Positions 13,388-62,049 of a stretch of DNA of 64,000 bases are shown here, one piece after another. The DNA is taken from contig CAIIXF020000012.1 of assembly GCA_903813345.2 (NCBI GenBank), positions 24,998,184 through 25,062,183 of the forward strand, written 5' to 3'. Every line of letters starts with the position of its first letter. The stretch's first letter is position 1. The notes beneath the pieces are model-generated. The model did not search any database and had not been told where the DNA came from. It saw only the letters and a list, made by a program, of their open reading frames with translations. Source of the stretch: Owenia fusiformis (taxonomy: Eukaryota > Annelida > Polychaeta > Sabellida > Oweniidae). The position numbers and the translations under genes are program-made.

Positions 13388-15265
13388 TCAAAGGAATGAA
13401 CCATCTTGTCCTCTATACTTCAGTGTGAAGATACACATCTGACGGGTTCCTTCGTGGTTAGCTCCTAAAATCAACTCTCCCTTTGAATTGGGCTCTGCAA
13501 AGTCAACCTTACAGTCTGTTGTGTCTGCTTCGATCAAGTCCTTGATGTAAATACCATCTGGCGTTAGAAGTTCCACTGTATTTTTGTCATTGTTTATAAC
13601 AATGATGTTATCTTTATCATCAACACAAGGACGCATGTGATATATTGATATATCAGTAGGTTTGTGCCAAAATAACATAACTGCTGAACTTCCATGTAGC
13701 TCAATTCCTGCGATACCCCCATTGTAAGACATGATGATTCTATTCTTGCTGTTAACTACCATGTTTGATGACCCTCCTCGAAATGTGTCCAAATTTCCAT
13801 CGACTGTTGCTTGACTCAACAACTTTCCGTTATAATCTACCCGGAATATAGTGAAATCTTTTGTCAATATGACAAACTCTAGCAGATGATTCATTGCAAA
13901 ATCGTGAAGATTGTTGATGGGACTTTGCAAAAACACCTTTCTTTTGAGTTTCCCGTTTTTCAAATTGTAGATACAGATTGAAATTAAGCGTGTTCCTCCA
14001 TTACAAGTAGCAAAGCAGTCACCTTTTACTTTATTCCAAGCACCAGTGATTTTTGGGAAGTTAATGGTACATTTTGGTTTTAACTCGTCATCATATATAT
14101 CCGCCTTACCATCATCAATTTTAACAATATCATCATTTGGGAGAATACAAATGTCCAGAAATTCCTCCACAACCTGATGTTTCTGAACATATTCTTCTTT
14201 GACATGTGTGGCTAGAGGATCATTATCAACAGACACTTCGAAATCAACCTCAGGGGGGATGGACCATAGGTTACACTTACTGTTCATCTCCGGAATCATG
14301 TTGACAATATCAGCTGGGTGGCCGTGATCTTGCAGAGCTTCTAACTGTTTAACAGTACCATCAATTGCATTTTTGTTGAATTGGAATTCAGCCAAATGAA
14401 CAACAATGCTCTTTGTTGCTGAACTGGCAGCTGCAATAGTGTCTATCTCCATTTTGTTAAACCGGGCATTTACTTTATCAATTTCAATCTTTCGATCAGT
14501 TGCAATCCTAGATTTAGTAACTTGTTTCTTTCTTTCAATCATTTGCTTGCGGATATGACCTGCCTGTATTCCCACTTCATACTTTGCTGACCTTTGCCTT
14601 CCAAGGTCAATTACTGCGCTCAAGTTCTTTAAGTTTGCTTTCGCAGTTTGTTCAATGTCCTCCAAAGGGTGACCTTGGTGTTTGAACGCAAAACAATCTT
14701 GACAGATAAGACGCTGATCTTTTTGACAGAAGTACTTCAATGGTTCTTTGGTGTGTACTTCACAGTATAAAGTTCGCTGGGATAACATGTCTATTGCTGT
14801 TTTAGCATCTCGGGAACTGTCGCCACTTAACACTAGCACCTGATGCGACTTTGTGAAACGCGACAATTTATGTGCACGTCCACATGATTTGCAAAGCTTT
14901 TCATTGCATTCCAGACATTTTAATATGGCAGGAACATGCTCATCAACTTGCAGACAGATATCACAATTCAAAGCATCTCTCGATGCTGCAGAACGATCCT
15001 TAACCGCATCCAAAACAGAATTAGCGAAAAAGTTCACCTTTAATCCTGCAGCCCCTTGATCAGGTATTGGGCAAAGGTCCCTGCAGTTTGGGCAAGGAAA
15101 ATCGTTCTTATGCTGATGTTTGTCCATTGTACTCTGTATACATTTCCTGCAGTAACTGTGCATACATGGCAAAGATCTAGGATCATCCAGCACCTCTAAA
15201 CATATTGAGCATGTCACTGAGTCTATTAAAGGATCAATAGCACTGGTTGCTGTTGCTGTTGTCAT
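13388..15265 (-). CDS. TRIM-family RING/B-box protein, single exon
   Basis: An uninterrupted 625-residue frame, ATG at 15265. The RING is C19-x2-C22-x11-C34-x-H36-x2-C39-x2-C42-x15-C58-x2-C61. B-box 1 spans about 101-141 (C101, C104, C117, C120, C125, C128, H132, H141). B-box 2 spans about 168-199 (C168, H171, C180, D183, C188, C191, H196, H199). A Lys/Glu-rich coiled-coil region follows at about 205-330. The C-terminal region at about 370-620 has repeated beta-strand blocks and looks like a propeller related to the NHL group, but I cannot assign clear NHL repeats. Proteins of this kind are ubiquitin E3 ligases; substrate and role are unknown. Lack of introns among intron-rich neighbours suggests expansion by retrocopying, which is common in invertebrate TRIM families. 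Confidence 0.9.
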   Translation of the reverse strand: MTTATATSAIDPLIDSVTCSICLEVLDDPRSLPCMHSYCRKCIQSTMDKHQHKNDFPCPNCRDLCPIPDQGAAGLKVNFFANSVLDAVKDRSAASRDALNCDICLQVDEHVPAILKCLECNEKLCKSCGRAHKLSRFTKSHQVLVLSGDSSRDAKTAIDMLSQRTLYCEVHTKEPLKYFCQKDQRLICQDCFAFKHQGHPLEDIEQTAKANLKNLSAVIDLGRQRSAKYEVGIQAGHIRKQMIERKKQVTKSRIATDRKIEIDKVNARFNKMEIDTIAAASSATKSIVVHLAEFQFNKNAIDGTVKQLEALQDHGHPADIVNMIPEMNSKCNLWSIPPEVDFEVSVDNDPLATHVKEEYVQKHQVVEEFLDICILPNDDIVKIDDGKADIYDDELKPKCTINFPKITGAWNKVKGDCFATCNGGTRLISICIYNLKNGKLKRKVFLQSPINNLHDFAMNHLLEFVILTKDFTIFRVDYNGKLLSQATVDGNLDTFRGGSSNMVVNSKNRIIMSYNGGIAGIELHGSSAVMLFWHKPTDISIYHMRPCVDDKDNIIVINNDKNTVELLTPDGIYIKDLIEADTTDCKVDFAEPNSKGELILGANHEGTRQMCIFTLKYRGQDGSFL

Positions 15266-45377: not shown

Positions 45378-47384
45378 ATGCCTTTTGAAAAACAGAGAAA
45401 AAAGTCAGCATTTTCCAAGGGACATGCATACATACCTGGTAGGAGATATGGAGATCTCAAAGAAAAACACACTCTTCCATGGAAAAGGCTCACATATGAG
45501 GACCAGGACTGCATTGTTCAGCAGGATAAAGATGTACTGAGGACCCCATTACTGGATGGCACGGATGGCCTAAAACTACTGAGGCCAAAGCCAAAATCAC
45601 CAGACCATGAAAATACTGACAATGATATTTGCCATGTTATGAGTGTTAAAAAAGTTGAAGACCTGTTGTCTCATGTAGTAAGGCATACTAATGAAAGCCC
45701 AAAATGTCACAATCCAGCCATAAGAATATACACGCAAAAATGGGGAGTTACGTGTACATTAACGTATGAGTGTACTCGCTGCGGTTTTCAATCACAAAAC
45801 TTCAAAATGTATAACATCGTAAAGACTCAGAAAAGAGGACGAAAAGCAGCCGTGAATAACATTGGACTTCATGCTGGCATTAATGAATCAACAATTGGCG
45901 TAAAAAAGGTACAGATAGCATTTGCGGCCTGTGGAATTGAGCCTCCAAACACAAGTAGCATGTACAAGACCTCAAACCAAGTAGGATCAGCTATTCTTAC
46001 CGAGGCAAGGAGGGACATATTTGAGAAAATAGAATATGTCAAAAAGTTGAATAACCTTAAAGGCGAAAGCGATACTAATGCAGTAGATATTTCTATTGAT
46101 GCAATGTATAATTCAAATCAAATCGCATCAAGAAATAAATACGGCCAGAGTGCTACACAAGCATACACAACAGTTCGAGAGCACAACACGAAGAGAAACT
46201 TTATAATTGGTGCCCATGTAGCAAACAAATTATGCTGGGTGGGAGCGTATTTACGCGGAAAAGGGTATGAAAATGTCAAATGTCCTGGTCATTCTGGTTG
46301 TACGGCAAATTATGATAGAGCAACACCACTTTCGGAACGTCACCTGGCTTATATGATTGGAAGAAATTTATCGCACGAAGGCTTGAACCCTAATTTGGTT
46401 ATCAGTGATGGGGACTCTCAATCCATAAATGGTCTCAATGACGCGATTCCTGAGAATAAAATGATTGCACAAAAAGACCCTATTCATTCAGCCCAGTGCC
46501 AATTTCGCGCAGTTCAGCGAGCAGAATTTTCTAACGACATGTTTGGTTTGAACACGCCAAATATATCGGTAGGTGAAATCAAGAAGGTACTAGGCTCCGA
46601 TATCAAAATGCGGTGTAATGGGGCCATCACAATGATACGAAAACAATTCGACCAAAATTTAACATTCGATGAGAATATCAATTTAATAAGTGGAAAAATA
46701 GCATCATCCGCTAGCGCTATCGTGAAATGCTACACAGGCGATTGTTCCAGTTGCGGACAGCAGGGTGTATACAGCCAATGCGACGGAGGGAAAAATACAT
46801 GGTGGAATAAATCTTACCATTTCAAAAATGTAAACCCACCGATCATAAAGGGCAGTTTCAGACCCGATAAAATAGACATTGAAATTCTTAGAGACATTAT
46901 TGATATTCTAATGTCGCGAGCTTCTTTCGAATTGATGAAATCTGGGAAATCAACAAATTCCAACGAAGCAGCAAATAGGGCTATCACCGCCAGGGTCCCA
47001 AAAAATGTAAGATGGTCACGAAATGGTACCAGCCGTGTTTTTGGGACAATTCACACTTTGAACAATGGGCCGGGAGTTTCGATGTGCAAAAAATTGAATG
47101 CAATCAATATTCCTATAGCAGGAAGGATATCGAATTTTTTCAAACGGATACAGAAAAAAGCCCTATACAAAAGTTCCTGGCAAAAAAGAGACTCTGTCAA
47201 AGCCCAACGGGTAAAACGCAGAAAATCGCAAATGTCAGATTTTTATAATGGACGGGGAAAACGGCAACGGTCAGACTATAAAAAATACAATGTACCTACA
47301 TTAAAAAGGAACAATGATCATACATATCAACAAGTAGAAATAAAGCAAAAAAGGGCTAGGCTTAATAGGCAAAAACATCAGTAG
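45378..47384 (+). CDS. Mutator-like DDE transposase, intact
   Basis: A continuous 668-residue frame with A at -3 of the ATG. Family clues: an N-terminal basic segment, a zinc-like region CHNPAI...CTLTYECTRCG (about 110-137), then GLHAGINESTIGVKKVQIAFAACGI-type sequence preceding SSMYKTSNQV. Candidate DDE residues are D241 in DISIDAMYNS (or D237), D344/D346 in VISDGDSQS and E530 in NSNEAANRA. Between the second and third acidic residues come CxxC-type pairs (CYTGDCSSCG). The C-terminal 90 residues are very Lys/Arg-rich and suit DNA binding or nuclear import. The layout fits the Mutator-like transposases of invertebrate genomes; the family call rests on motifs remembered, not on a search. No stop or frameshift interrupts it, so it may be active. 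Confidence 0.75.
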   Translation: MPFEKQRKKSAFSKGHAYIPGRRYGDLKEKHTLPWKRLTYEDQDCIVQQDKDVLRTPLLDGTDGLKLLRPKPKSPDHENTDNDICHVMSVKKVEDLLSHVVRHTNESPKCHNPAIRIYTQKWGVTCTLTYECTRCGFQSQNFKMYNIVKTQKRGRKAAVNNIGLHAGINESTIGVKKVQIAFAACGIEPPNTSSMYKTSNQVGSAILTEARRDIFEKIEYVKKLNNLKGESDTNAVDISIDAMYNSNQIASRNKYGQSATQAYTTVREHNTKRNFIIGAHVANKLCWVGAYLRGKGYENVKCPGHSGCTANYDRATPLSERHLAYMIGRNLSHEGLNPNLVISDGDSQSINGLNDAIPENKMIAQKDPIHSAQCQFRAVQRAEFSNDMFGLNTPNISVGEIKKVLGSDIKMRCNGAITMIRKQFDQNLTFDENINLISGKIASSASAIVKCYTGDCSSCGQQGVYSQCDGGKNTWWNKSYHFKNVNPPIIKGSFRPDKIDIEILRDIIDILMSRASFELMKSGKSTNSNEAANRAITARVPKNVRWSRNGTSRVFGTIHTLNNGPGVSMCKKLNAINIPIAGRISNFFKRIQKKALYKSSWQKRDSVKAQRVKRRKSQMSDFYNGRGKRQRSDYKKYNVPTLKRNNDHTYQQVEIKQKRARLNRQKHQ

Positions 47385-52100: not shown

Positions 52101-55100
52101 TTGTTTGGTTAGAAGTACGAAATATGTTAATAAGTGTACCTGATGAAGATGTATGTTATTTTTTTTATTTACCATCTTAAAGATGAGTAAATATACATAA
52201 ATATGTTACAAAAATAAATAAATAAAAAGTAAGAGTTAGGAATGAAACCTTTTAATTTTCTAATTTTCCTTCGATTAAAGTTCAAGATGACGTTTCATCA
52301 TTTATTTCATTTTTATTATGGTCTCAAATTTTATTGTGAAAAGTGGTTGGTGTTTGGCATTCAGCATCTATAACAAATGGCAGGTGGTGACATTTTGTAT
52401 GTTAATGCCTGGTCTTATTTTTGACATGATTTTTTTAAATATTTCTTTATAGGCAAGAACAACAGACAAGCTTTAAACAACAACGACGAGGTAGCACTAT
52501 CTATAAAGAAGAACAAAGGTACTTTTCTTTTCATAACATTGATGCATCTTGTTTGTCTTTCTCTCAGACAATTATATTCATTCAATATCACATGTTATTG
52601 AAATAATAATTACAGGCCACAGACTCAAATCCAGTGAACTGGTCTGTCAAATATATCGTCAGTTGGCCTATCACTAACATCTGCTTAGAAGTTATCTTGT
52701 CCAAAACACATGTTCCTGAAGAAAGCATGCTCAAAGCAGTGGTATCGGCCTTGAAATATACACTGTATGCAAAGCATATTTATTGAAAGAGAGCCGACAA
52801 CAGGTTCAATCAAATCTGGAAAAATATTCCATACTGTCAAGAGTTCATTTTCTTCATTGTATTTTCAGCTTTTGTGTTCATGGATGTTACGCAAGGGGAA
52901 GATATGAGTCTCCCGCCAGAGATTAGGGAAAAATATACAATGTCAAAAACACTTGGAAGGTAAGACCTTGTATAAGATTTCTCATTTTTATGGTAGTTTT
53001 TATTTTCACCACCACAAGTGGTGATACATTGTTATCGTCTCCAGCTTCTTCGTGGCAGTGGTCAGTGTTTGGTGGCTGGTGTTCGGAGGTTGGTGTTTGT
53101 TATTCGGTGTCTAAAAATTGCAGTTGGTGAGATTTTGCATGTTAATGCCTTGTTTTGTAAGATCTTTACTTCATATACATATACCATACCCTTATTCAAA
53201 TGTTGAATGGAAGCAAAAGTTGCCTAATAAATGGTATATTCATAAAATGAACCTCTTAAGTTATTTCCTGTACTGGTAATCATAGAAATTAATAGAAATT
53301 CCATTTGAAAATTTTCTTCATTTATGGGGTCTCTGCAACATTCTCATGTGGAGTGGCTCAATGAAAATTGAGTTGATTTAGAACAACAACAACTTAAGTG
53401 AAATATTTGTTGTTATCTTATAAGTTCCTTGTTAGCCTATATTAAAGTTCTGTGTAATTTCTGTATTTTATTAGGGGAGCTTGTGGGGAGTATATTAAGG
53501 TTCTGTGTAATTTCTGTATTTTATTAGGGGAGCTTGTGGAGAGGTGAAACTAGCCTTTGAGAAAGGATCTTGTAAAAAGTTTGCAGTAAAAATTATATCC
53601 AAGAAAAAGTTTACAATAGGTGGAAACCATCACGTGGTAAGTTTTTATTAGGGTTATTTCAACCTCATTTGGTTATAGACTCAAACCTGTTTAAGTGGAA
53701 CACCTTCGGTACCTCTAAAAATAGTTCCACTTAGGAGGTGTTCCACACACATGTTTAAAGGAAAGAGGTTCATGTAATATTGGGTCAATTGGTCTTTAGA
53801 CTCTAAAAAGTCCAAAGACCAAAGTCCAAAAGTCTAAACAGAGTTCCACTAACAGAGATGTCCCACTTCTAGAGGTATTCTACTTTACAGTTTTTACTGT
53901 ATATGATAAGTATAATTTGATTTACAATTGATCAGTATGACTTAAACAATGATTATGATTTTCATCTTTGTCAATAAATTCTGATATGGGGTATGTTTTT
54001 ATGTCACCACCAGAAGGGGTGAAATATTGTTGTAGTCTCCAACTTTTTTGTTGATGATGTACGATGGTTTGCAGTTTGCATTTGGTACTCAGCATCTATA
54101 AAAAATGGCAGGTGGTGACATTTTGTATGTTAATGCCTTGTTTTACCTTTTGGATTGGTCTTTGAAGGGCAATTTGTAAACAGTAGAAAACTTAAAGGGG
54201 CAACAAGGCCTGTAGAGAGAAAATTAGAATTATTTTACTTTTTCTGAGCTATCAGGGCATGGCTTAACATCTTCTTTGACAAACCTATTTTCTTAAAATG
54301 TATGGATAAACTATCAATTTCAGCATGAAGAAGTGTAAATTCAGTTCAAAGTTTCTGTGGATTTTAAGATTCACCATATGCATGTTTCGAGGAATATCAG
54401 CTGAATATAATGTTCATCCAGGGGGTTTCTTTGGAAATAATAAATTAAAATATATGTTAGTCTCAAAGAATAACCAAACTTAAATATATTTTGACACTTG
54501 TCCATGATCGTTGAATGGCCCCTCTGCACTCATTGTTGCACCTTTAAGATTATTTAAGTAAATTATTAAGAAAATATTTATTTTCAGAATTTAGCCAACC
54601 AAGTCATGACTGAGGTGAAAATATTAAAATCACTTAAACATGTAAGTGTATACTTGAACCAATGTATGCTTAAGCACATTTGCTCTATCGTGGGCATTCA
54701 GCAGCTGTAGCTTCACAAAATTGATATTGAAAATCTACATTGTGCTGCTTATCCCAATATTTTATGCTGCATATTTCTTTTGATGGGAAGCCGCTGTATG
54801 GTTGCCATAGATCAAATGTGACTGAGGCATTAATATTTTTTAGAATTTATCCTACCTATGATTACAATGTACTTTACAATATTATTAATTTATTTAAAAA
54901 TATTTTTTTGATCTTTAATTAAACCAATTACCAGTGACTCCCTATTCTAGTACTATGTGTATATATATTTTTTATTTTAAACTATTGTTTTTTATTTGTT
55001 TTATGTAAAATAAGAAAGTGAGACTTCATTATTTTCTAAAAATTGAGACAGCTACCATCTTTTACTAATTGTACGTTTCCATGTATGTTCCAGGCTTGCA

Positions 55101-58100
55101 TAATTGCCATAGAAGATGTTATAGACACCCAAGATACGCTGTTTATTGTACTTGAACTGTAAGTAAATTGTACTTAAACAATAAGTTTATTGTACCACAA
55201 CTGTAACTTAATTGTACTTGAACTGTAAGTTAATTGTACTTGAACAATAAGTTTATTGTACCAGAACTGTAAGTTAATTGTACTTGAACTGTAAGTTAAT
55301 TGTACCAGAACTGTAACTTAATTGTACTAGAATTGTAAGTTGATTGTACGAGAACTTCAGCTTAATGATGCACACTGGTTGCTTTCTCATGAAATTAGGA
55401 GTTTCCAGTCTTCATGAAATCATGAGAGGAAATTCTCTTGAAATAATCATCATGAAAATAAGATCATCGGAGAAAATTTGAACCAAGTTATAAGAGTTGA
55501 TCCTCATGAAATCGCGAGAGGCAATCTTCATTGAAGTTGTCTGATACTATCACATTGAGCATTGTTGTACATATGTTATAACATATTATTTTAATCTAAT
55601 GAAATTCATCATTTTTATTGTACATATTATATGTTTTTTGCAGAGTTGAAGGTGGTGAGTTGTTTGACAGAGTCACGAGTCTTGGCCAAATAAAAGAGCC
55701 CACAGCCAAACTGCTCTTCTATCAAATGGTGCTAGCAATAAAGGTATATCACTGTTCTACTATTTCTACCTCAGATTTTTATGAATAAGAAGTAAATTAT
55801 GTAATGTCACTGTTTTACCAATTTTTTTCAATGATTTTGAGAAGTATGACTTGTGAATAGATTAACGCCAGTAGAGAAACTTCACTTCTGCCTTTAATAT
55901 GATTGGTCTACAAAATCCACAGAATTAGCTTATTCTTGTGTCAATGATATTTTGAGGAGACCTCTGAGATGAGGAATCATATATCTGAGATGAACTCTTC
56001 CCTTGGATGATAGATTCAAAGATTTATTACATGTTTATTGCGAACTTTTGTTTTGCAGTATCTTCATGACCAAGACATAACACATAGGGACTTAAAGCCA
56101 GAGAATATTCTTCTGGCATGTGACGGTGATGAGACCTTAGTAAAGGTAAAATATATAGAGTTGAAAATACTAATATAATAATCATGAGTGGATGTGATAT
56201 GAGATATACCCATTTTTAGTTTTTAAATAAGTAGTAGTTATACTTCACTGGGAGCCAGAACTGTAGATTTAGTTGTAGTGATACAGATAACCACTGGTGG
56301 TGCTAGTGGAGATCCCATTAACATTAAACTGCCACAGACAACTTATGCTTAATAGCCATGAATGCAACTGGTATTAGGTTACACTGGTCAGTTCACTTAT
56401 GCACTTTAAATGGCCAACATACATTTCCCAACAATTTCTTGCATGATCTCGAGTAGTAATATAATGTGATATATTGTTACTGTATGATTTAATTATTTAT
56501 TCATTATTTATCTTATAACATGCACTTTTCTTGACTTCAAATTAATCAGTATGCATTTAATATTAATAATGGTGTTATCTTAGGTTGTTTTTGAGAGAAA
56601 TGATATACGTATGTAAATGTATGCTGTTTCAGTGCAAAATCATTTAGTCCTGACTATGTCTTTTATGAATGAGAAAAGTCTTTACATACATATTACAGGT
56701 TCTTGGAGAAAGTATGTTTTTAAGAAGTTTATCACTTACATCTCAGGTTGACACGCCAAATAATATTTCATCAGAGTTATTATTCCATTACATAATTTTG
56801 ACTTTCACTTAATTTTGATTTATATTCTCCTTTATTTCAGCAAATTTGTTTCCCCAGGTCTAAAAATGTTTGCAATCATTTTTTCAGTATATCAGCAAGA
56901 TTTGTTACATTCAGTTTGTGTTAGGGAAATGAATTTTTGGTTTCAAGTATGGATTATGTGAGAGTGATAGTCCAGTGATAGTATGATTTGAAACACATTT
57001 TTCTCAAAATCTGATTCTGGCACCGCTTGGAAATCTTTTGACCTGCATAGGAGACACTTTGAACAACACTAATGAAGATGTTTGAGAGTAGTGCCAGAAT
57101 CAGATTTTTCATTATAATAGATTAATGTTAATGGTCATTAAGAGAGTTTCAAATCTTCAAAGAGAGTGGCTGAGAGTAAGACCACAGAAATCCCTAGAGA
57201 TCATCAATGATACATCTCTATCTCTACTAAAGTGATGTTTAGATATTACCCTTGCAACATATTTAATTTCAATCTGAATTTATCAATCTGGTGGTATATG
57301 ATAGACTGTTAAAGAATGTCTAAAAACATTACAAGATAGGCCATTTTGAAGCAGAAGGTATCACTAAGCAACAACTCAGAATGAGGCTCTCTGCTGTATC
57401 AGCCTTGGCTATCAGGTTTCACAAGGCTGCTTAACTAAGTCTTGTGAAGTTTACTATACTGGCTCCCAGTGACTTGTATTTTGAGATTCATTACCTAACA
57501 TATTGGATCTAAATGAATCAAAATAGAATAAATAAACTCTTTAAGTTTACTCATATGTTTTGGATTCAGATATGGTATTGCATCCTTAATAAATGGAGAT
57601 GCTCATAAAAGGATGATGGGTGGTACCTTTTAGAAGACTAAATTTAACTATACTATCATAATCATTGATGCAAGTATGGTACATGTGTTATTCTATAAGT
57701 TGTATCTCTTAATTTAGGTTACCGATTTTGGTCTCTCTAAGTTTGTTGACGCAAATACCATGATGAAGACATTCTGCGGGACACCTAATTATCTGGCCCC
57801 TGAGATATTAAAGACTGCTGGGATGGGCAAGTACAACAACAAAGTGGACTGCTGGGCACTTGGAGTCATTTTGTTTATCATGTAAGAACTATATAAAAAC
57901 AAGTACAGGGTGGTCAAAAAATGGGACACTTGTATTTTGAAAATAGATATTGATTTTCTTGATGAAACCATGTCATATTATCTGTAGGGTGGAACACCTC
58001 TATTAGTTGAACACTTTTCAGAATCCCAAGACCAACTAACTAAATGTCAAATTAACCTCTATAAGTGGGACACCTCCCATGTGGAACATTTTTTAGAGGT

Positions 58101-61100
58101 ACAGGTGTTCCACTTAGACAGGTTTTACGTTAAATGAAGTGTCCTGCATAAACTGTATAGTTAAGAATGTACAGTTGTTCACCAATCCAGAAGTGGACTA
58201 TTTGAGCCTATGGAATCACCTATTCCTCCATATTGCATTCCATCTGTGAACTATTTTCAGACAAATTAAATTGCCATTCATCTTATCCAGTGTGGTCATA
58301 TCCATTTTATGGGGTCGAAATTAGTAATTTACACATAATTGGTCCATGCTCTTACTGTTGAATCATTTTGGAGGAATCTGATCTTTTAACTAAATGGACC
58401 AATTAAATGGTGCCATTGTAATGACATTTGGCTTTGGTAGTGACAGCTTTTGGCATTTTGGCATCCTTTAACACTTTTTTACCCATTTGCAACAGCTTAC
58501 CAGATGACATTTTGCAACATGAATGCTTTCATATGTCACCACAAGGGGTACTGACATATTGTTATAGTATCCAGCTTTTTGTGGATGGTATTTGGTAGTT
58601 GGCATTCAGCGGTTGGCAAGTTAGGCGTTAGTCCATTGTCTGTAACAAATGGATGGCTGTACCATTTGACATGTTAATGCCTTGTTTGACATTGAGTTGA
58701 CTCTTTATGTCAACCTCTTCAGACAGTATATAAAAATACACTATGCAATGCAGGGAATCATTGATGGACCATTATATTCTCTTAATGTATCATGATTTTC
58801 TCCTTTTCAGGCTGGCTGGGTATCCCCCATTCACTGAGGAACGCAAGGATATGGATCTCCCTAAGCAGATAATGGGAGGACATTATGACTTCCCAAAAGT
58901 TCATTGGAAGGGCATCTCAAACACAGGTACAGTATATGATATTTACATACAGTTTTACTATAGGACTTCTAAAACCTCTGTAAGTGGTGTAACCTTTGTT
59001 TTTTTATTGGGAGTTGTTTCACCTAAAGAGGTTCATTTAAAATTAAGTCAGTTGATCATTGAACTGTGAAAGGTGTTGTTTCACTTTACAGATTTTATGT
59101 ATTGAATAGGAGGCACTTCTGTAGTTAAATGTAATATCTTTGAGGATCATATAGACCTATTTGGCATCACCCTTGACTTAATCATCTGCTTAATGACACA
59201 TTTTATTTTTATTTTCTCTCTAAAAATACTACCTGTATTAGTTAATGAAAACACAGAATCAAATTCTGCACTAAAAGTTGATTTGAAAAAGAAGCCAGTC
59301 CACCCTTGTTGGGATCAACCCACGAGCCTTCGCTTTCTGTACTATAGTGCACTACCACTGAGCTATGGAGCCTACCGACTCTTCCACTATAAAAGTACTA
59401 CATGTAAATATACCATACATCATCATATCATCATATGTACATTGCAGCCATTGATCTGATTAAGCAGCTGATGAAGGTCAAGCCTGCAGACAGGATCTCA
59501 ATGGAGAAGGCTTTGGAACACCCATGGCTGAAGGTATGATTGTACACCCCCTCCCAAATTATATTTAATGACGGAAGGTATGTTCACCCCCTAAATTTAT
59601 GTTAAAGCATCCAAGGCTGAAGGTATGTACAGTGTACACACCCCAAATTATATTTAATGACGGAAGGTTCATCCCCTAAAGTTATGTTAAAGTACCCATG
59701 GCTGAAGGTATGTACATCCCCCAAAATTATGTTAAACATCCATGGTTGAAGGTAGGTGTACATACATCCTCCCAAAATTATTCAGAACATTCATGGCTGA
59801 AGGTATGTTTATCCCCCATAATTATTCAGAACATCCATGGCTGAAGGTATTTATGTCCTGCAAAAATATGTTAGAACTCCCACAATATGAATTCAATACT
59901 TCCCATATTATGTCAGAACACCCACAGTTGATGGTATGTACACCCTCCAAAATTACCTATCATTGAAGGTATTTTACACCGTCCAAAAAATTGTTTTGTA
60001 AATTAACATATGAGAATACAATCAGAAATCATATATCAGAAATGAATGCATGAAATATCAATAAATACAAACATTTGTGTCTTGAAATAGTTTGAGGTCT
60101 AGTTATTGGTTGGATATTGTGTGACAATAAATCTAGAGCATGATGATAAATATGACCCTGTTGAATATACCCATGTACCCTTTGTTTCAGGACAATGAAA
60201 TGAAGAACAAAGCTGATGCTATTATAAAGGCAGCTAATGCACAGGTATGTTCACTCAATTTTCATCTTGAAATATGGCAAGGATTACAGCTTAATTCAGA
60301 CTTTAAAGTGGGTATTTTCTAGTCATGTAAACAGGTGTCTTTTAGCCCAATGAATTATCTCCAAAAGCACATTTAAAGAGGATAGGGTCAAGTGAACCCT
60401 GAAAGGCAATCACAATAAACATGCTTTTGCTGAAATGATTTTCATCCTTTGGACCCCCATGTTAAGATTCAAGGTTGAATTTCAAAGCTTGCTGCTGCCA
60501 ATTCAAGATATCTGCCAGGAAAAATATTATTCAAGAGAACTTCAGTCATCAAATTTGGTCTTAATTTTTATAACGATTTTAGTCGTTCTGTATTTACTTT
60601 ATACCATGTTAATCATAGAAATCCAAAGACTGTAGACGCACTCAGTGAGAGTGCCATTGATATAAATAGTGTAGAGTCTCAATAAATAAATAAAAATAAA
60701 ATATATTTAAATTTCATTAATTGTTTCAGAGAGGAGAGATGCCACCACCAGCCGTTAATGCAGTAAGTGTAAGTTTGCTTCAGCTTCTCGGCATGCTTAT
60801 TGTACAAGGGTTAACTCCGTTAGCATGAACTTGAAGATATGTTAATCAGTAACGTTTGATTAATCCAGTCTACATGTTAATCAGTAACATTTCCTTTGTC
60901 CAGTTAACATGTTAATCAGTAACACTTCCTTAGTCCAGTTTACATGTTAATCAGTAACACTTGCTTAGTCCAGTCTACATGTTAATCAGTTATACTTGCT
61001 AAGTCCAGTCTACATGTTAATCATTAATATTTTGCTCAGTCTACATGTTTAAGTCATTAACCCTTATTAAGTCCAGTCTACATGTTAATCAGTAATATTT

Positions 61101-62049
61101 TGCTCAGTCTGCATGTTAGTCATTAACCCTTGCTTAATCCAGTCTCTTCGTACATGTTAATCAGTAACACTTGCTTAATCCCGTCTACATGTTAATCAGA
61201 TGCTTTCTTAGTCCAATCGAATTGTAATACTCATCTATGTGTTGCTAGATCGGGCTAATAATAAAGATTATTAGCTGCATCCCTTCATGGACATAGGCTA
61301 TAGATTTAAATAATGATCCATTGAAGTAATGGGATTTGCACCCATTTGGGATTTAACTGAGAAACTATGGCGTATTTTCACGAGGCTTCTTTAATGAGAA
61401 ACTCATGTTATTCAAGAGGCACAATGAGAAACTATGAAGACTTAAATGAAAAATTATGTCCTCTTTTCACTAGGTTTAATTAGAGGTTATGTCACTATGA
61501 CGTGAAATATGCCTGAGTTCTCCCAATATAGGCCGACCTTGGGAGGCTCTATATTTGGGCAAGAACGAAGGCATATTTCACGTCATAGTGACATAACTGA
61601 TGTATTACATGCCTTTGTTCCCATGGTTACTTTGTATCAATGACGTGACGTCATGATATTATCATGGTTATTAAAGAAATCTAATATCAAAACGAGGTAA
61701 GCGGGCTATATCGGGGTAATCGGGCAATATCGGTGGATATAGCTCGCTAACTTTCCCATTGACTTCCATACAAATGCTTCGCTAGGTATGTAATACTGAG
61801 AAATATGTCATATTCATTGGGCATTTAATAAAAAAAACATTCTATATTTACAGATGGCCTTTAATGATAAAATGTGCCATATTTCACAGGGCCTTTAACG
61901 AGTAACCATTTTTATTTTCATAGGCCCTTTAATAAGAAACTGCATTCTGGTTTCAGCCTAGGAAGAGAAGCGCCTCCGCTAGTAATGGTTCAGAAGAAAA
62001 TGATACCAAGAGAAAGTCCCTAAAAACGCCACCTATAGAAGACTCATAA
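49197..62049 (+). CDS. CHEK2: Checkpoint kinase 2 orthologue, complete, 16 exons
   Basis: Ser/Thr kinase of the DNA-damage checkpoint, activated by ATM and acting in the nucleus. Exons: 49197-49362, 51220-51344, 51998-52076, 52453-52518, 52869-52959, 53528-53636, 54588-54641, 55094-55158, 55644-55743, 56059-56145, 57718-57881, 58811-58926, 59448-59533, 60191-60244, 60730-60768, 61957-62049. All phases agree and give 497 residues (human 543). Residues 1-40 hold three SQ/TQ sites, T24-Q25 being a possible equivalent of human T68. FHA domain about 55-150: FGRG (R66), SSNGTFIN. Kinase about 170-440: GRGACGEV loop, K197, HRDLKPEN (D296), DFG (D317), activation-loop T332 and T336 matching human T383 and T387. 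The tail has PRKRS and TKRKS basic clusters, a likely nuclear signal. Confidence 0.95.
52330..52440 (+). repeat. Dispersed repeat ending GGCAGGTGGTGACATTTTG
   Basis: One member of a family with ACAAATGGCAGGTGGTGACA, then TTTTG(T/C)ATGTTAATGCC. Other members: about 1388-1450, 53005-53160, 54003-54145, 58535-58690 and, inverted, 62808-62905. Longer copies start CACCACnnnAGTGGTGA and contain TCTCCAGCTTnTT. It is concentrated in the CHEK2 introns and may be a SINE or MITE; no poly(A) or tRNA head was identified. Confidence 0.7.
53438..53543 (+). repeat. Tandem duplication of a 3' splice site in CHEK2
   Basis: Two copies of 53 bp (53438-53490 and 53491-53543) each contain a T-rich tract, TTTTATTAG and GGGAGCTTGTGG. 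The second is the true start of the exon 53528-53636 (glycine loop). The first copy is a decoy acceptor at 53474; joining there shifts the frame and meets TGA soon after entering the real exon. Confidence 0.88.
53681..53899. mobile_element. Pogo/Tigger-like MITE in CHEK2
   Basis: AAACCTGTTTAAGTGGAACACC at the left (53683-53704) and GGTATTCTACTTTACAGTTTTTACTG at the right (53874-53899) are imperfect inverted termini. Related pieces lie at 57983-58133 in another CHEK2 intron, at about 6112-6195 and at about 58970-59097. Confidence 0.6.
55142..55357 (+). repeat. 22-bp minisatellite whose first unit is the CHEK2 exon end plus 5' splice site
   Basis: Ten units of TTAATTGTACTTGAACTGTA plus AG run without a break. 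Unit 1 is TTTATTGTACTTGAACT of the exon ending at 55158 plus GTAAG of the donor. Several later units (starting near 55208, 55252 and 55274) repeat AACTGTAAGT, giving full decoy donors. The 22-bp period is exact across the array. Confidence 0.92.
59305..59374 (-). repeat. tRNA-like sequence, probably SINE head
   Basis: On the minus strand, TAGCTCAGTGGTAG resembles the tRNA A box and GGGTTGATCCC the B box, about 45 bp apart. The acceptor stem does not close and the T stem is imperfect, so this is not a functional tRNA gene. It lies in the CHEK2 intron 58927-59447. Confidence 0.55.
59515..59995 (+). repeat. About 45-bp minisatellite seeded by a CHEK2 exon end and 5' splice site
   Basis: The exon ending at 59533 finishes CACCCATGGCTGAAG, followed by the donor GTATGA. 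The intron then carries around ten degraded copies of CATCCATGGCTGAAGGTATG followed by a C-run, AAAATTATGTTA and a new unit. Good decoy donors are near 59621, 59708, 59803 and 59848. Confidence 0.9.
60838..61215 (+). repeat. About 36-bp minisatellite downstream of a CHEK2 5' splice site
   Basis: Ten or so units of CATGTTAATCAGTAACACTT followed by GCTTAGTCCAGTCTA. The exon-intron border at 60754-60780 (GTTAATGCAGTAAGTGTAAG, then TTTGCTTCAG) is similar, suggesting that this array also arose from the junction, though less clearly than the other two. Confidence 0.82.
61485..61605. mobile_element. Palindromic element in the last CHEK2 intron
   Basis: GTCACTATGACGTGAAATATGCC is mirrored by GGCATATTTCACGTCATAGTGAC (61490-61512 and 61571-61593). 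The centre carries CCAATATAGG/CTATATTTGG pairs. Confidence 0.7.

Follow-up and report, generated by a model that had tools for sequence, protein, structure and literature searches.

Exon-intron border repeats in a CHEK2 gene of Owenia fusiformis resemble the mirages of amphioxus

Introduction

Tandem repeats that run across exon-intron borders were named mirages in the amphioxus Adh gene (Canestro et al. 2002, as cited in PMC3087553). They have been described in amphioxus Adh3, the globins BflGb6 and BflGb9, troponin C and PGBD5, lie at 5' and 3' borders alike, and carry decoy splice signals in many of their units (PMC3087553, PMC3902484). The units measure 10-72 bp in Adh3 and about 150-160 bp in the globins (PMC3087553). 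Splicing in the presence of these repeats is reportedly undisturbed and apparently normal (PMC3087553, PMC3902484). Two other systems are close to them. Intron gain by tandem duplication, as summarised for Drosophila and potato, likewise involves a duplication that carries splice signals within a gene, and ordinary intronic minisatellites or VNTRs grow in copy number from short units.

Here we analyse three intronic arrays, and a fourth repeat at an acceptor, in a 64,000-nucleotide stretch of the Owenia fusiformis genome (the window). A sequence-only reading of this DNA had proposed that the arrays were seeded by splice junctions and knew of no named class for them. Such a class does exist, since PMC3087553, citing Canestro et al. 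2002, describes it under the name of mirages. What is new is the probable occurrence of mirages outside cephalochordates, together with an estimate of their frequency, about one conserved junction in 20.

Repeats across CHEK2 splice junctions

Joining 14 exons of the window, from 51220 to 60762/60768, gives one stop-free frame, and the spliced product matches human Chk2 (PDB 3i6u) at E 7e-120. On this match the gene carrying the arrays is CHEK2, as the sequence-only reading had identified it. The positions of its repeats and of the two exons that matter most here are given in Table 1.

Table 1. Repeats and exons of the CHEK2 gene (window positions; a slash marks the splice junction; TRF, Tandem Repeats Finder)
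Feature	Position	Strand	Basis
53-bp x 2 duplication over 3' splice acceptor (TTTTATTAG/GGGAGCTTGTGGAGAG)	53438..53543	+	TRF, exon frame
CHEK2 exon ending at kinase hinge (LFIVLEL)	55094..55158	+	donor GTAAGT at 55159
Array 1, donor-side mirage, 22-bp unit x ~10	55141..55356	+	TRF, shuffle test
CHEK2 exon ending EHPWLK	59448..59533	+	donor GTATGA at 59534
Array 2, donor-side mirage, irregular ~44/85-bp repeats of CACCCATGGCTGAAG/GTATG	59519..~59970	+	TRF, shuffle test
Array 3, 35-bp minisatellite within intron, ~70 bp past donor	60839..61215	+	TRF

Some other features of the window were recorded in passing. Two candidate donors lie 6 bp apart at 60762-60774 (GCA/GTAAGTGTAAGT), and the frame stays intact with either, with Val-Ser added or not. 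By eye, a dispersed element is common to several CHEK2 introns (~52340, ~53010, ~54010 and ~58530) and carries stretches like GTGGTGA...CATTGTTAT..TCTCCAGCTT and GGCAGGTGGTGACATTTTGTATGTTAATGCC. A Mutator-like transposase with a 668-aa open frame occupies 45378-47384 (PF20700, E 1.3e-41), and 13388-15265 on the minus strand encodes a 625-aa RING/B-box (TRIM-like) protein in a single exon.

TRF recovers array 1 as 22 bp x 9.8 with a score of 271. The array takes in the last 18 nt of the exon with its end at 55158, and its first unit consists of those 18 nt plus GTAA; the repeated unit is the exon end plus GTAAGT. The alignment of the exon end with the array scores above 500 of 500 composition-preserving shuffles, which bears out the description of about ten tandem copies of exon end and donor that begin in the exon. 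Individual units differ from the exon unit at 1-6 of 22 bases, and a weak higher-order period of 66 bp (three units) is present, as expected from block copying. The nine later donor positions read GTAAGT four times, GTAACT twice and ATAAGT twice, and one is lost. Mismatches occur at a rate of 0.139 in the decoy GTAA and 0.123 in the rest of the unit, and in this small sample the per-site mismatches gave no sign of selection for or against the array 1 decoy donors. Such equal decay of the decoys and the remaining bases argues against selection either way. With its first donor retained, array 1 reads GAA CTG TAA, and the in-frame stop that had been predicted for use of a downstream donor is indeed found there.

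Array 2 is less regular. TRF reports ~85/44-bp repeats from 59519 to 59850, with near copies of CACCCATGGCTGAAGGTATG (1-3 mismatches) at 59608, 59693, 59737, 59788 and 59832 and weaker copies at 59563, 59919 and 59954. None of 500 composition-preserving shuffles reached the score of the exon end against this array, confirming it as copies of CACCCATGGCTGAAG plus GTATG from the exon end at 59533. Several of the decoys (GTATGT) outscore the true donor (GTATGA), and the choice of the outer site therefore cannot depend on donor strength alone. The structure of arrays 1 and 2 is that of rows of decoy donors, as had been claimed. Since the exons bearing these two arrays encode conserved Chk2 sequence (LFIVLEL and EHPWLK), the copying went from exon to intron.

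A further duplication, absent from the sequence-only reading, crosses an acceptor at 53527/53528. Its two copies of 53 bp match at 96%. Only the second runs on into the exon (from 53528), and the first would shift the frame.

Array 3 was recovered by TRF as 35 bp x 10.3 at 60839-61199 and is a real tandem array, but the proposal that it derives from the junction at 60762/60768 was rejected, as its match to that junction is at about chance level. The junction's score against the consensus was equalled by 171 of 2000 shuffles and by 127 of 791 ordinary 80-mers of the window, and its score against the array in full length by 15 of 500 shuffles.

Duplications thus cross 3 of the 28 CHEK2 junctions (arrays 1 and 2, plus the 53-bp repeat at the acceptor). 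This is more than the 1.3 expected, yet within chance (binomial P 0.13, unadjusted for the choice of a striking gene by the earlier reader), and CHEK2 is not exceptional in this respect.

Comparison with described systems

In arrays 1 and 2 and in the 53-bp acceptor duplication the unit spans an exon-intron border, as it does in mirages by definition; in array 3 it does not. Their units of 22, ~44 and 53 bp fall within the range of amphioxus mirages, with which they share minisatellite-like, border-spanning repeats and decoy splice signals. The amphioxus examples are reported in cephalochordates, whereas the CHEK2 arrays are from Owenia, an annelid. Mirages are further characterised by length polymorphism, including somatic instability; the CHEK2 arrays are known from one assembly. 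The outer donors and acceptor of the CHEK2 repeats yield the stop-free Chk2 frame, and these original sites are presumably the ones in use. A narrow search of the literature, which is weak evidence, found nothing more on mirage-like repeats in further taxa.

The other two systems fit less closely. Intron gain of the Drosophila and potato kind places a new intron between two copies of a duplicated AG/GT, whereas in CHEK2 the junction that is duplicated was already there and no intron has been added. The copies sit in an existing intron with one donor and one distant acceptor, and the Chk2 frame needs no extra exon. With ordinary intronic minisatellites or VNTRs the CHEK2 arrays share units of 22-50 bp, the weak 66-bp period of array 1 and growth in copy number, but their first unit lies partly in coding sequence.

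Related repeats in other genes

Examples at both kinds of junction in other genes of this genome were read by eye, and the gene names (MAP2K1-like, PAK-like, kinesin and KIF4-like) are presumptive, taken from recognised peptides. In the MAP2K1-like gene the donor after ...SMANSFVGTRSYMS is repeated (54 bp x ~4). A PAK-like exon has an acceptor-side array of 86 bp x ~4 (L070:525-856) and, independent of it, a donor-side repeat of 71 bp x 2 (L070:1066-1206). Among kinesins, one gene carries an acceptor array of 42 bp x ~3. The KIF4-like kinesin carries an acceptor array of 159 bp x 17.9 with 97% matching (L062:846-3689, G000:C2, minus strand). Its unit comprises the intron 3' end and 128 bp of exon, and only the last copy enters the exon; this very large acceptor-side mirage is probably young.

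Junctions compared with nearby intron sequence

The sequence-only reading had taken the splice junction to be the apparent common factor and suggested comparing arrays at exon-intron borders with chance. We made this comparison in an independent sample of 79 loci, consisting of stretches around kinase and kinesin exons that Pfam searches had located in this genome. Junctions were placed at domain-internal exon edges from the ends of HMM matches and from splice-site weights rather than from RNA, and local tandem duplications were scanned with a scoring that gives none in Markov shuffles. Such duplications cover ~6% of the window, far above the zero of Markov shuffles. In the sample they cross 8 of 177 junctions (4.5%; donors 3/85, acceptors 5/92), and 262 of 4599 intron positions 40-300 nt from junctions lie inside them (5.7%). 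This gives a ratio of 0.79 (95% interval from a bootstrap over loci 0.33-1.28), a sample of 177 junctions leaving room for enrichment below about 1.3-fold. Random uniform placement predicts 13-15 crossed junctions against the 8 observed. Genome-wide, rows of three copies of the donor word AGGTAAGT at 16-46-bp steps show no excess: there are 217 of them, and 358 such rows of the reversed word. Singly, the two words occur about equally often in the sample (14 and 18).

Together, the junction counts and the lack of a donor-row excess indicate that, within the power of the sample, junctions are not preferred seeds. It is thus unlikely that tandem duplication in this lineage starts preferentially at splice junctions, as it might if splicing-linked structures or U1-bound nascent RNA promoted slippage there. 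One gene with two donor arrays and an acceptor duplication, and the further cases in other genes, would suit such seeding. Against it stand the absence of any excess over nearby intron, the relative scarcity of donor-word rows, and array 3, which was not demonstrated to be junction-derived.

Origin of the repeats and their meaning

The reading that we favour, and hold to be quite probable, is that arrays 1 and 2, like the 53-bp duplication at the acceptor, are mirages produced by ordinary local duplication and minisatellite growth and kept since the outer unit completes the exon, the junction being no preferred seed and the decoys without sign of function. A local tandem duplication whose ends fell by chance on both sides of a junction would have placed in the intron a copy of the exon end together with its splice site; two of the three copies would then have grown as ordinary minisatellites by slippage or unequal exchange. 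Local tandem duplications arise often across the noncoding DNA of this genome, and those that cross a junction would be tolerated and retained because one end unit, the first donor or the last acceptor, still completes a normal exon. The sequence-only reading had offered two alternatives, slippage that favours junctions and tolerance because the first donor is always used. The former finds no junction enrichment to support it; the latter, widened to presumed use of the outer unit, gives the best fit.

A role for the decoy rows, either in recruiting U1 snRNP against early polyadenylation or in controlling CHEK2 output by stop-containing isoforms, is very improbable. The in-frame stop that follows decoy use in array 1 and the strong decoys of array 2 would fit such a role, but the array 1 decoys have mutated as fast as the other bases of their unit, like duplications occur at acceptors where there is no row of 5' splice sites, and the amphioxus mirages reportedly leave splicing undisturbed (PMC3087553, PMC3902484). 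Least probable of all is that the exon ends resemble the arrays by coincidence or assembly artefact: the chance-level match of array 3 to its junction is what it would predict, but for arrays 1 and 2 no shuffle reached the observed score (0/500 for each), and divergence among array 1 units is unexpected for duplicated reads.

Earlier work proposed that mirages supply material from which new introns could arise. A tentative reading, with somewhat less than an even chance, is that a non-chordate genome carries junction-spanning duplications at about one in 20 junctions, hence thousands genome-wide, and holds in them a lasting reservoir of decoy splice sites and potential introns, of which CHEK2 would be a single case. 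The probable presence of mirages in an annelid, and their rate, suggest that mirages arise generally as a side product where local duplication is frequent. It would also provide a natural collection of genes whose splicing requires the spliceosome to choose between several neighbouring splice sites that are almost identical. In the same genome, one kinase-domain stretch is matched twice, 178 bp apart, at G000:C10:2256896-2257205, and from the matches this is likely another tandem exon duplication.
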